NCBI RefSeq assembly: GCF_001426705.1
Contig: NZ_LMFC01000001.1
Span: 651-64,650 of the forward strand
Origin: Cellulomonas sp. Root485
GTDB taxonomy: Bacteria > Actinomycetota > Actinomycetes > Actinomycetales > Cellulomonadaceae
Direction: 5' to 3'
Length of the DNA stretch: 64,000 nucleotides
Shown: piece after piece, positions 6,467 through 48,155 of the stretch
How the letters are laid out: every line of letters begins with the position of its first letter
Position numbering within the stretch: position 1 is the stretch's first letter
Notes under the pieces: model-generated
The model's database searches: none
Told to the model about the DNA's origin: nothing
Seen by the model: the letters and a program-made list of their open reading frames with translations, nothing else
Program-made: the position numbers and the translations under genes

Positions 6467-6788
6467 CCGGGGTGCCACCGGGCGTCGACCGCGGTGACAG
6501 CAGGGCGTAGCCCGACGAGCCGCGCCGTGGTTGCCGTGCGTAGTGCGCGGGCGTCGTGCTGATCAACGCGAGGACCACGGCTACGGCCGTGAGCCACCAG
6601 CCCAGCGCGCAGACCGCCGACGGGCGTCAGGGGAGTGCGTGACCTGGTAGCCCCACCTCGGCAGGACGGCGGAGAGCACGACCATGACAGCAAGGGCCCA
6701 GAGAGCGACGTGCGAGACGAGCGACAGCTGGGCTGCCGCCGTCTCGCTCGGCGATCCCGCGACGGGCGCGAGATGAGTGACGACCGCG
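6444..6788 (-). pseudogene. Possible frameshifted two-helix membrane protein gene
   Basis: Downstream of the DUF3073 gene on the same strand, one frame encodes a hydrophobic segment (VSHVALWALAVMVVLSAVL, then PRWGYQVTHSP) and stops at a TAG near 6581. A different frame, opening right after an in-frame stop near 6630, encodes a second one (VCALGWWLTAVAVVLALIS) and a polar tail ending at the TGA at 6444-6446, inside the purM 3' end. One indel near 6625-6640 would join them into a single two-helix protein of about 100 residues. No convincing start codon was found. It could be a decayed gene, a sequencing error or chance. Confidence 0.3.
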
Positions 6789-7001
6789 TCAGCGGTCGTC
6801 GTCGGACCAGCGCCGGTAGTCGTCGCTGTCGTCGTCAGTGTCCGTCTCCACAGCCGCGCGAGGGCGGTTGTCGGTGACGACATCGTTGTGGCCGTGCGAC
6901 GTGAGCTCCTGCTCGAGAGCTCGGTAGTTGGTCTCCGGGCTGAAGTACTTCAGCTCCCGGGCCACCTTCGTCTGCTTAGCCTTCTGACGGCCGCGCCCCA
7001 T
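6789..7001 (-). CDS. DUF3073 family protein
   Basis: 70 residues, highly charged. It begins MGRGRQKAKQTKVARELKYFSP, which is diagnostic for DUF3073, a short actinobacterial family without known function, and ends in an acidic Asp/Arg tail (TDDDSDDYRRWSDDDR). The basic head and acidic tail suggest a nucleic-acid or ribosome partner, but that is inference. It is divergent from bldC, with about 510 bases between the two genes. Confidence 0.88.
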   Translation of the reverse strand: MGRGRQKAKQTKVARELKYFSPETNYRALEQELTSHGHNDVVTDNRPRAAVETDTDDDSDDYRRWSDDDR

Positions 7002-7513
7002 GGCATCGACCCCCTCTTACGTGGATGCGGGGCGGCTCCGTGCTGACACGTGCGGCCCCGGGGTGCTGAATCGTCTCTTCGAGGGGCAACGGTACATGGT
7101 CGTTCGCTATTCCGACCACTCGCCGCGGGCGATCCGCGTCACGTGCCCGCCTCCGACCGGTTCGTGCCGACCGCGGGTCCAGGTCACCCGTCCAAGCGTG
7201 CGTGGACGGATGCGCGCGTCGGTGCGTATGACCGTTTGGTCGGGTTTAGGGTGGTGCTGTGGCCGCAGAGTGCAGCGGTATGAGAGTTCTATGAGAGTCC
7301 TGTAGAGGTTCGTTACGGGAACGTGTCCCGGAATGCGCTGTCTGCGGCTTTCGTTCATGCTAGAGGGGCGATGTCATGATTTGGGCATCGACGACGTAGG
7401 CTCGGCATCGCAAGAACGATTCACACGGTTGGACCCTGCACCACCCGCACCTGAACTGGCCGGGCGCCGGCACTGTCGGCACCGCGGGCCGCACGCTTGC
7501 CAGGAGGCAGCTG
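7002..7513. other. Long non-coding leader region upstream of bldC
   Basis: The 512 bases between the DUF3073 start and the bldC start hold no credible gene; short open frames here lack codon bias and ribosome sites. The region contains an inverted repeat GACC-GTTT-GGTC (7230-7241), three 11-bp direct repeats (7279-7311), and an AGGAGG ribosome site just before bldC. It must hold the divergent promoters of both genes and is long enough for a regulated leader. Confidence 0.6.
7279..7311 (+). repeat. Three 11-bp direct repeats upstream of bldC
   Basis: TATGAGAGTTC (7279-7289), TATGAGAGTCC (7290-7300) and TGTAGAGGTTC (7301-7311) follow each other without spacers. The first two differ at one base. 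Read in a shifted register they are GTTC/GTCC/GTTC-headed 11-mers. An 11-bp period places each unit on the same DNA face, as in binding sites filled head-to-tail by a regulator. Confidence 0.65.
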
Positions 7514-7723
7514 ATGAACGCACACCCCGTAGAGACCGAAGCACTGCTCACGCCCTCCGAGGTCGCGACTCTGTTCCGGGTTGATCCGAAGACTGTGACC
7601 CGGTGGGCCAAGGCCGGGAAGCTGTCCTCGATCCGCACCCTCGGTGGTCACCGGCGTTACCGCGAGTCCGAGGTGCGCGACCTGCTGAACGGTGTTCCGC
7701 AGCAGCGCGCGTCGGACGGCTGA
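7514..7723 (+). CDS. bldC: BldC-type MerR-like transcriptional regulator
   Basis: 69 residues, almost entirely one winged helix-turn-helix: LLTPSEVATLFRVDPKTV, then TRWAKAGKLSSIRTLGGHRRY and RESEVRDLL. This is nearly identical, from memory, to Streptomyces BldC, a developmental regulator that binds direct repeats as a cooperative head-to-tail multimer. A perfect AGGAGG (7502-7507) sets the ATG start. Unlike full MerR proteins there is no effector or dimerisation domain. Its presence supports an actinobacterial host, whether or not the organism has a complex life cycle. Confidence 0.95.
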   Translation: MNAHPVETEALLTPSEVATLFRVDPKTVTRWAKAGKLSSIRTLGGHRRYRESEVRDLLNGVPQQRASDG

Positions 7724-7831
7724 GCGACCGCACCCGCCCGGCCGAGCCCGTCGACCAGGATCGACGGGCGCTCGACGGTCGAGCGCACGGTACGCCCCGC
7801 TCCACAGACTGCCCTCCCGATCTGCACACGA

Positions 7832-7871
7832 AGAACTGCGGGGCTCGCGACGACGCGAGCCTCGCAGTTCT
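7832..7871. terminator. Bidirectional terminator between bldC and the DUF3618 gene
   Basis: An 18-bp stem (7832-7849 with 7854-7871, one G-T pair) closes a 4-base loop ACGA. It lies between two convergent genes and can serve both. Confidence 0.85.
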
Positions 7872-7905
7872 CCTGTCCCGAGAGACGTCGAGCAGGACCT
7901 GACGC

Positions 7906-8220
7906 TCAGCTCTTGCGGCCCGCGGCGATGACGAGCGCGAGCAGAGCCACCGCCCCCGCCGCGACCCCGCCGATCACGGCCAGCGCCTTCTTGCGGGCGT
8001 CCGGCGCCACGCCGCTGCTCGTCGCATCACTCCAGAGCTGACGTCCCGACGCGACGGCCCGCCCGGCCTGCGCACGCGGGTCCAGGCGAGCCACGAGCTC
8101 GTCCACCGTCGACGCCAGCTGGGCACGGGTCACCGCGAGCTCGGCCTCCAGAGCCACCATCTCGGGTGTGCTGAAGGGCTTCTGCGTGCTCGCGGGCTTC
8201 TGGACCGACTCGTCGCTCAT
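7906..8220 (-). CDS. DUF3618 family membrane-anchored protein
   Basis: 104 residues. The start at 8220 overlaps the stop of the upstream gene (ATGA). The N-terminal half has the DUF3618 pattern (ALEAELAVTRAQLASTVDELVARLDPR), and a single C-terminal transmembrane helix (about 80-100) ends in a basic RKS. DUF3618 proteins are small actinobacterial membrane proteins, usually next to holin-superfamily and stress-related membrane proteins as here. Function unknown. Confidence 0.85.
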   Translation of the reverse strand: MSDESVQKPASTQKPFSTPEMVALEAELAVTRAQLASTVDELVARLDPRAQAGRAVASGRQLWSDATSSGVAPDARKKALAVIGGVAAGAVALLALVIAAGRKS

Positions 8221-46351: not shown

Positions 46352-48118
46352 ATGACACATCGACCGCAGTTCATCGCCGCCGGAGCAGCAACCCTGCTCG
46401 CCGTCGCGCTGGGCGCCGCACCCGCACAGGCGTCCCAGCCCAAGCCCCCGCTGATCATGGACAGGTCCGAGGTCGAGGTCCAGGTGCTGGCCCTCAACGA
46501 CTTCCACGGGAACCTCCTGCCTCCGACGGGCAGCGGAGGGCGCGTCGGGACCATCAACGCGGGCGGGTCCGCGTACCTCGCGACCCACGTGAAGAACCTC
46601 GAGGCGACCAACAGGAACTCCATCGTGGTCTCCGCGGGCGACCTCATCGGCGCGAGCCCCCTCCTGTCGGCCCTGTTCCACGACGAGCCCACGATCGAGG
46701 CGATGAACGCGATCGGCCTCGACCTCAACGCGGTCGGCAACCACGAGTTCGACGAAGGGGCGACGGAGCTCCTGCGCATGGCGAACGGTGGGTGTCACCC
46801 GACGGACGGCTGCCAGGACGGCACGCCCTTCGCGGGCGCCGACTTCGACTTCCTGGCGGCGAACGTCGTGCAGGAGTCGACCGGAGAGACGCTCTTCGCG
46901 CCGTACTCCATCCAGAACTTCACCGGCGCCAAGGTCGCCTTCATCGGCATGACCCTCGAAGGCACGCCCAACATCGTCAGCGCGGCCGGCATCCAGGGCC
47001 TCGACTTCCGCGACGAGGCCGACACCGTGAACGCGCTCGTCCCGCAGCTGCAGGCGCAGGGCGTCGAGTCGATCGTCGTGCTGGTGCACGAGGGCGGGTC
47101 ACCGACGGCCCTCGACATCAACGGGTGCGCCGGGGTGTCCGGCCCCATCGTCGACATCGTCACGCGGTTCGACCCGGCAGTCGACCTCGTCGTGAGCGGC
47201 CACACCCACCAGCCGTACAACTGCGTGATCGACGGCATCCCGACGACGAGCGCCTACAGCTTCGGGCGCCTGGTCACGGACATCGACATGCGCGTCAGCC
47301 GGTCCACCAAGGACGTCACGAGCCTCACGATCAACAACCGGGTCGTCACCCGGGACGTCCCGGAGGACCCGACGATCAAGGCACTCATCGACCGGTACAA
47401 CACCCTCGCGGCGCCGATCGCGAACCGGCCGATCGGGCACATCACGGGCGAGCTGACCAACACGAACCAGCCCGACGGCGAGCAGCTGATGGGTGACGTG
47501 ATCGCCGACGCCCAGCTGGCTGCCACCGACGGGCCGGCACCGGAGGGGCAGGCCGTCGTCGCGTTCATGAACCCGGGCGGCGTGCGCGCGGGGCTGACCT
47601 ACCCGTCCGGCCCGGCGGGCGAGGGCGACGGAGTGGTGACGTTCGGCGAGGCGTTCACCGTGCAGCCGTTCGGCAACATCCTGCAGACCCTCACCCTGAC
47701 CGGAGCGCAGATCGACCTGCTCCTCGAGCAGCAGTTCTGCGGCCTCAACTCGCCGTTCGCGAGCCCCACACCGGGGTTCTTCAAGGTGCTGCTGCCGTCC
47801 ACCGGCTTCAGCTACACCTGGGACTTCGCCGTCGCGAACTCGGCGGCGAACGTCACCTGCGCGACGGACCCGGCACTCGGCGCGGTCAACCCCGCGTCGG
47901 TGACGATCAACGGCGTCCCGCTCGACCTCGCCGCGAGCTACCGCGTGACGGTGAACAACTTCCTGGCCGACGGCGGTGACGGATTCGGTGTGCTGCGCAG
48001 CGGCACCGACCGCGTCGGCGGTCTGGAGGACCTGCAGGCGTTCGAGGCCTACCTCCAGGCGGCGGAGCCGACGGGCATCAGCCCGCCGCCGCTGACGCGG
48101 ATCACCCGCGTCAACTGA
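46352..48118 (+). CDS. Secreted bifunctional metallophosphatase/5'-nucleotidase
   Basis: 588 residues. Signal peptide 1-28 (AQA-SQP). Calcineurin-like metal sites: LALNDFHGN (Asp50, His52), GDLIGASP, GNHEFDEG and GHTHQPYNC. The C-terminal nucleotide-specificity domain carries GDVIADAQLAAT, NPGGVRAGLTY and the late NNFLADGGDGFGVL. It dephosphorylates extracellular nucleotides for phosphate and nucleoside uptake. Its last codons are part of a 29-bp tandem duplication that continues past the stop. Confidence 0.94.
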   Translation: MTHRPQFIAAGAATLLAVALGAAPAQASQPKPPLIMDRSEVEVQVLALNDFHGNLLPPTGSGGRVGTINAGGSAYLATHVKNLEATNRNSIVVSAGDLIGASPLLSALFHDEPTIEAMNAIGLDLNAVGNHEFDEGATELLRMANGGCHPTDGCQDGTPFAGADFDFLAANVVQESTGETLFAPYSIQNFTGAKVAFIGMTLEGTPNIVSAAGIQGLDFRDEADTVNALVPQLQAQGVESIVVLVHEGGSPTALDINGCAGVSGPIVDIVTRFDPAVDLVVSGHTHQPYNCVIDGIPTTSAYSFGRLVTDIDMRVSRSTKDVTSLTINNRVVTRDVPEDPTIKALIDRYNTLAAPIANRPIGHITGELTNTNQPDGEQLMGDVIADAQLAATDGPAPEGQAVVAFMNPGGVRAGLTYPSGPAGEGDGVVTFGEAFTVQPFGNILQTLTLTGAQIDLLLEQQFCGLNSPFASPTPGFFKVLLPSTGFSYTWDFAVANSAANVTCATDPALGAVNPASVTINGVPLDLAASYRVTVNNFLADGGDGFGVLRSGTDRVGGLEDLQAFEAYLQAAEPTGISPPPLTRITRVN

Positions 48119-48148
48119 CGCTGACGCGGATCACCCGCGTCAACTGAC
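48091..48148 (+). repeat. 29-bp perfect tandem duplication spanning the 5'-nucleotidase stop
   Basis: Units 48091-48119 and 48120-48148 are identical. The first encodes the final LTRITRVN and the TGA; the second is untranslated. Each holds TGACGCGG-ATCAC-CCGCGTCA, an 8-bp hairpin, so the event doubled a small stem-loop. The duplication is exact, suggesting it is recent. Confidence 0.93.
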
Positions 48149-48155
48149 GCGACAG

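Follow-up and report, generated by a model that had tools for sequence, protein, structure and literature searches.

A direct repeat upstream of bldC in Cellulomonas as the probable operator of a two-component response regulator

The bldC gene of a Cellulomonas genome is preceded by two adjacent 11-bp units, each carrying the half-site ATGAGA, that we predict are probably an operator for an OmpR/PhoB-family response regulator paired with a HAMP/HisKA kinase. The proposal is built on what was observed: a conserved motif whose geometry is fixed, which recurs at other genes and which co-occurs with the regulator. Response regulators such as PhoP use sites laid out as 11-bp direct repeats, and a first-pass annotation of this DNA had read the array as a binding site for either PhoP or BldC. 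A direct-repeat protein-binding site is very probably what units 1 and 2 form, as that reading supposed, whereas the two proteins it named are wrong or unsupported. Below, the window denotes the whole 64-kb stretch of DNA that was analysed, and G000 is the genome to which it belongs.

Table 1. Features of the bldC upstream region and of the candidate regulatory pair (positions are those of the window unless a contig is given)
Feature	Position	Strand	Basis or description
DUF3073 gene, divergent, on the other side of the shared gap	6789..7001	-	Pfam PF11273, E 1.2e-23
Candidate promoter P1, sigma-A-type -10 box TANNNT at 7247-7252	7242..7253	+	conserved GGGTTTAGGGTG
Unit 1, core half-site ATGAGA at 7280-7285	7279..7289	+	TATGAGAGTTC; repeat present in 14 of the 67 bldC regions of the genus
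Unit 2, core half-site ATGAGA at 7291-7296	7290..7300	+	TATGAGAGTCC; letters and comparison of relatives
So-called unit 3, at most a weak third half-site	7301..7311	+	TGTAGAGGTTC; not a repeat in relatives
Candidate bldC promoter P2, GGAAT-N18-GTT	7330..7355	+	exact match to the published SigR motif
bldC, 69 aa	7514..7723	+	NCBIfam NF033787 HTH_BldC, 106.5 bits (cut-off 77)
Candidate regulator, group II	G000:C1:308853-309509		OmpR/PhoB-family, best candidate in the window's genome
Partner kinase	G000:C1 309563-310957		HAMP, HisKA and HATPase domains

Results

Two adjacent 11-bp units upstream of bldC are conserved

The divergent DUF3073 and bldC genes are separated by a gap of 512 bp that contains the repeat array (Table 1). 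Three contiguous 11-bp repeats had been annotated at 7279-7311, and their coordinates and letters proved exact. As a repeat, the array is confined to its first two members: units 1 and 2 are identical at 10 of 11 positions, whereas unit 3 matches unit 1 at only 6 and unit 2 at 5.

In a 64-kb window an 11-bp tandem pair with at least 10 of 11 identities is by itself unremarkable, since such pairs begin at six positions and 30 first-order Markov simulations gave 3.9 on average. Requiring at least six A/T per unit left this array as the only instance in the window (simulated mean 0.0), and when the 512-bp intergenic region was simulated 2000 times, 0.35% of the runs contained a pair with at least 10 of 11 identities. 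Once any period from 6 to 20 was allowed, a tandem pair with at most one mismatch appeared in 97% of 300 simulations, so that chance within a single sequence is weak evidence for the array. Tandem Repeats Finder, run at a minimum score of 30, did not report 7279-7311; elsewhere in the window, 48090-48150 holds a perfect 29-bp tandem repeat (2.1 copies, 100% match). The case for the importance of units 1 and 2 is a comparative one, rather than one of single-sequence statistics.

The comparison covered 81 Cellulomonas genomes, 67 of which encode BldC at E ≤ 1e-30. From their 68 bldC loci, 67 intergenic regions complete at both ends were obtained; these represent 66 genomes, one of which has two copies. 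ATGAGA-N5-ATGAGA is present in 14 of the 67, which come from the window's genome, from seven near relatives and, in a second clade, from six species. Conservation in close relatives, which the first-pass annotation had named as the check on its repeats, was found for units 1 and 2, but unit 3 is not kept as a repeat; its counterpart in the near relatives is TGTGNAGGTTY-like. TGTGAAG-like blocks also occur in species without units 1 and 2, and because they persist there unit 3 may be an element in its own right or, at most, a weak third half-site. A search for the pattern ATGAGAGTTSNATGAGAGT in 84,980 named species returned 21 matches. Seven lie in named Cellulomonas (biazotea, sp. Leaf334, algicola, septica, xylanilytica, fimi and humilata), with the DUF3073 start found in all seven and BldC in six, the seventh sequence ending before bldC. 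None of the 14 matches outside Cellulomonas had DUF3073 plus BldC protein motifs in the adjoining DNA examined.

The repeat keeps a fixed distance from two candidate promoters

In the congeneric alignment, units 1 and 2 sit between the P1 -10 box and the GGAAT of P2 and are flanked by conserved blocks. The block at 7242-7253 recurs as GGGTTTANNNTG in 28 of the 67 congeneric intergenic regions and is a candidate sigma-A-like -10 element, its promoter role being suggested by its letters. The SigR promoter motif is quoted as GGAATN18GTT in a passage of PMC2375139; positions 7330-7355 share exactly this arrangement, and GGAAY-N18-GTT occurs in 16 of 67 congeneric intergenic regions. P2 is accordingly labelled a candidate SigR-type promoter of bldC.

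In the window, the repeat core starts 50 bp before the P2 GGAAT, and the P1 TANNNT begins 33 bp upstream of that start. The distance to GGAAY is 49-50 bp in all 14 bldC sites, with a pattern that admitted GCT beside GTT, and the core begins 32-34 bp past the start of TANNNT in the 13 bldC sites measured.

Other elements were seen in the same gap. An imperfect palindrome, GACCGTTTGGTC, at 7230-7241 adjoins the P1 -10 block and is retained with changes in near relatives; it is a possible second operator. The leader before the DUF3073 start (7002-7070) is identical in 68 of 69 columns among 11 aligned species. Its predicted fold was not better than shuffles (z -0.97) and it had no Rfam match; a scan of 6700-8000 against Rfam gave no match up to E 5.

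The motif recurs upstream of a diguanylate cyclase gene and a two-component operon

Across the 81 genomes, exact ATGAGA-N5-ATGAGA occurs 56 times and the reversed pattern not at all. Relaxed to RTGAGA-N5-RTGAGA, the motif has 134 matches in 47 genomes, some overlapping as tandem units, against three for the reversed pattern, a control matched in base composition that leaves codon and start-codon effects uncontrolled. Among the relaxed matches spacer position 7 prefers G (94 of 134) and position 11 is S in 126 of 134. Three tandem units are found at one place in G029 and G048, and four at another in G006.

Three contexts stand out: a diguanylate cyclase gene in 36 genomes, bldC in 14 and an OmpR-type two-component operon in 10. 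The first is a GGDEF gene whose product has a diguanylate cyclase domain by NCBIfam. In the 36 genomes a distance of 35-62 bp separates the upstream site from the protein match, and in the window's genome the site is 35 bp upstream of the gene; its orientation is opposite to that at bldC. At the operon, all ten sites are exact and have a group-I regulator (defined below) nearby, which is 1.8-2.1 kb from the site in nine genomes and 24 kb away in G021. The order in G020 is a small acidic exported protein, the kinase and the OmpR-type regulator, and parts of this order were seen in G008, G029, G032, G047 and G048; for G028 and G050 the position of the regulator near the site is the only basis for the assignment. 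The kinase gene of G021 appears split (L167 2277-3134; L219 2624-3367), and a ParA-like gene (named by eye) lies in the roughly 22 kb that separate its two parts, as if an element had inserted. The placement of sites ahead of a two-component operon suggests, as their ligand, the regulator encoded in it.

The remaining 74 of the 134 relaxed matches were read in part, and target genes lacking a Pfam or NCBIfam match were named by eye. Targets that recur in several genomes each are a carbohydrate phosphorylase gene (PF00343), purL (AIRS domains), a gene for a DUF6055 protein that follows adenosine deaminase and deoC, the pncB/helicase gap, and a neighbour of purB that has no Pfam family. In the loci read, sites before purL, the phosphorylase gene and the DUF6055 gene have the same orientation as at bldC. 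Matches with no obvious target were also among those read (they include L211, L263, L301 and L313), so some relaxed matches are probably due to chance. The third relaxed site of the window's genome, C3:638305 (L263), has no clear target.

A search allowing one mismatch in the window's genome and its seven near relatives returned 49 matches against one for the control. Two of these sequences are common to all eight genomes, one in the dnaA-dnaN gap (context read in three genomes) and one in a SHOCT/TlpA gap (read in two). We do not claim either as a target, since those regions may be conserved for other reasons. The copy between dnaA and dnaN (named by eye) lies at L246 1491-1507 (G000:C2:59290) and is identical in the eight genomes.

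A response regulator co-occurs with the motif

Homologues of the OmpR-type regulator were found at E ≤ 1e-58 in 46 of the 81 genomes, the weakest among the matches listed having E 3.1e-82. They fall into group I, with at least 69% identity to the G032 protein (13 genomes, 10 of which have this group only), and group II, with 63-66% identity to it (36 genomes, including that of the window). The regulator is below the cut-off of all 25 NCBIfam models listed, and the nearest solved chain to the group-I protein is PrrA 1ys6 (E 4.6e-45).

Regulator and relaxed sites occur together in 43 genomes, a site alone in four, a regulator alone in three and neither in 31 (Fisher p 1e-14, which overstates the independence of these genomes because they are related). 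With strict ATGAGA sites the corresponding counts are 33, 1, 13 and 34. A site without a detected regulator was seen in G012, G052, G054 and G060, and a regulator without a relaxed site in G030, G031 and G076; sites scoring 11 of 12 precede the kinase genes of G031 and G076 themselves, a score that four of 357 overlapping 700-bp segments from the rest of the 64-kb window also reach. The cyclase site follows group II in the 79 genomes in which a search at E ≤ 1e-60 found a homologue of the cyclase, although the more distant of these homologues may not be orthologues: 35 genomes have both the site and a group-II regulator, one the site only, one the regulator only and 42 neither. The exceptions are G060, which has the site only, is 89% complete and is sister to the regulator-bearing G006, and G037, which has the regulator only.

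BldC, DUF3073 and the leader were used to build a tree of 66 genomes, on which the regulator is absent from several separate lineages, and sites are absent there too except in G012 and G060. Group II and the cyclase site are jointly missing from several separate lineages, with the exception of G060. The sisters G038 and G039 differ in both regulator and site, and G039 retains the cyclase gene with a decayed site. Seven of the 10 group-I-only genomes have exactly one exact site, which lies close to the operon (close to the split kinase in G021), and the other three have none.

The recognition helix SNVVDVYVRYLR is shared by 29 of the 30 regulators read (30 of 50 matches); in the window's genome it occurs in one of 18 PF00486 domains. 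The exception is G030, which has VYIAYLR where the other 29 have VYVRYLR and which lacks an exact site. The kinase-regulator pair of the window's genome has no site upstream (best score 8 of 12), and autoregulation is therefore suggested for the group-I homologue only. The bldC site is present in only 14 of the 36 group-II genomes.

Alternative ligands and an RNA-level explanation

The main and serious rival to the response regulator is BldC, which would bind the repeat head-to-tail and autoregulate bldC, the cyclase site being another BldC site. Passages of PMC5859096 describe cooperative binding of BldC to direct repeats of the form AATT(N3-4)(C/G), and in PMC6428758 the ChIP-seq targets of S. 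venezuelae BldC include the promoters of bldC itself and of a diguanylate cyclase gene, which are the two kinds of gene at issue here. The Streptomyces sites at whiI and smeA-sffA are likewise direct repeats upstream of promoters. They are 9-bp and loose, with an A/T-rich tract plus C/G, whereas the bldC site here is a strict 11-bp RTGAGA repeat, with five bases per half-site fixed at an 11-bp step; this strictness is set by the chosen pattern and is kept in the 14 bldC loci. Units 1 and 2 contain no four-base A/T tract of the AATT(N3-4)(C/G) kind, a point to be read beside the authors' statements in PMC6428758 that the consensus is not critical and that BldC sites are not predictable bioinformatically. 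By distribution, BldC at E ≤ 1e-30 and sites are found together in 43 genomes, sites alone in four, BldC alone in 24 and neither in 10 (p 0.02), an association far weaker than that with the regulator. In particular, 21 of the 23 genomes with BldC at this threshold but without the response regulator have no site, and sites before the two-component operon are unaccounted for by BldC. We regard BldC, the binder first named for the array, as an unlikely ligand on these grounds. The window's genome also has a second BldC-like gene, G000:C1:1064764-1064952 (L002, L221), 75% identical over query residues 5-67.

Co-occurrence cannot separate proteins of equal distribution, and the true ligand could be some other transcription factor gained and lost in the regulator's lineages by shared ancestry. 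However, a site precedes the group-I response-regulator operon itself, and the single altered recognition helix, in G030, coincides with the lack of exact sites; an unseen factor of this kind is distinctly improbable.

Binding of PhoP to a PHO box, and with it the phosphate control of bldC that had been proposed, is highly implausible. The window's genome does encode a PhoP-like protein. The window also reads GTTC, GTCC and GTTC at 11-bp steps, and PHO boxes are 11-nt direct repeats whose most conserved motif, in a passage of PMC6283541, is GTTCACC. This register is found in one of the 14 bldC sites, that of the window, where ACC does not follow; it is not kept in relatives because GTTC falls in the variable spacer. 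PhoP is present in 80 of 81 genomes irrespective of sites, which 47 genomes have, and its helix in the window's genome, GDTKTLDVHVKRVR, differs from that of the linked regulator. Compared by letters and by distribution, the sites showed neither GTTCACC-like 11-nt units nor a spread explained by PhoP: the PHO box shares the 11-bp direct-repeat layout of the bldC site but has GTTCACC where the half-site here is RTGAGA.

Scarcely credible is an explanation by translated mini-ORFs or an RNA element in the upstream transcript: ATG AGA GTT CTA TGA (MRVL stop) and ATG AGA GTC CTG TAG are both present in the window and P1 would put them in a leader, but the frame of the first arises from any 11-bp ATGA repeat, the amino acids of the inner codons differ between species, no ribosome-binding site was seen upstream of them, and the motif before the cyclase gene is inverted relative to that at bldC.

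Two other named sites were considered and rejected. The MprA box comprises two 8-bp repeats three bases apart. A link to it was dropped, as no confirming passage was found and PMC12113857 gives a different motif for Corynebacterium. The MtrA repeats of S. coelicolor, two short GT..AC-type half-sites five bases apart in a passage of PMC5650626, do not match the RTGAGA repeat; the same passage reports bldC transcription in an mtrA mutant as slightly reduced, at some time points only.

Discussion

The nearest known systems to the bldC site are operators of the OmpR/PhoB family such as the PHO box and the MtrA site, which likewise have two short half-sites in a direct repeat at 11 bp. Half-sites about 11 bp apart were found here (14 of 67 bldC regions; 134 matches against 3), as was a regulator where the sites are (43/4/3/31; for the cyclase site, 35/1/1/42). 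The likeness extends to extra tandem units at some targets and to a site before the two-component operon in relatives. PrrA of Mycobacterium tuberculosis (1ys6), to which the group-I regulator is likened by its sequence, shares the receiver and winged-helix layout.

For the favoured response regulator we infer binding, phosphorylation, the direction of control and the signal. In the proposed mechanism, two regulator molecules would bind ATGAGA-N5-ATGAGA head-to-tail, and the group-II protein of the window's genome is the candidate to act on units 1 and 2. The same regulator would control the diguanylate cyclase through the site 35 bp upstream of its gene, which would place bldC and a c-di-GMP synthase in one regulon. 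Given that the core lies 50 bp before GGAAT and 33 bp after the start of TANNNT, we propose that kinase signalling would lead the regulator either to tune the SigR-type P2 or to block the upstream P1; we lean towards P2, with blocking of P1 possible. Relative to a SigR-type start, if that start is near 7363, the half-sites would occupy positions of about -83 to -67, and they would be inside a transcript from P1.

More broadly, and with rather less assurance than for the operator itself, we favour a reading in which a Cellulomonas two-component system reads RTGAGA-N5-RTGAGA and one kinase sets c-di-GMP synthesis and BldC jointly. It would include lineage-specific recruitment of bldC, glycogen phosphorylase and purine or nucleotide loci, and the joint control would sit beside a SigR-type stress promoter. 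Among the papers listed in a literature search, none described such a Cellulomonas two-component system or an RTGAGA direct repeat.

To our knowledge, Cellulomonas form no aerial hyphae, and the control of bldC and cyclase expression in non-sporulating relatives has been little studied. In the Streptomyces developmental switch, BldC and c-di-GMP are central, as a passage of PMC6428758 describes. The operator, the candidate regulator and the short list of targets make the proposal directly testable, and the close co-occurrence of gene and site offers a clear example of a regulator proposed for an orphan motif by comparative genomics alone. If the proposal is true, two regulatory circuits, that of bldC and that of c-di-GMP, would be linked in Cellulomonas.
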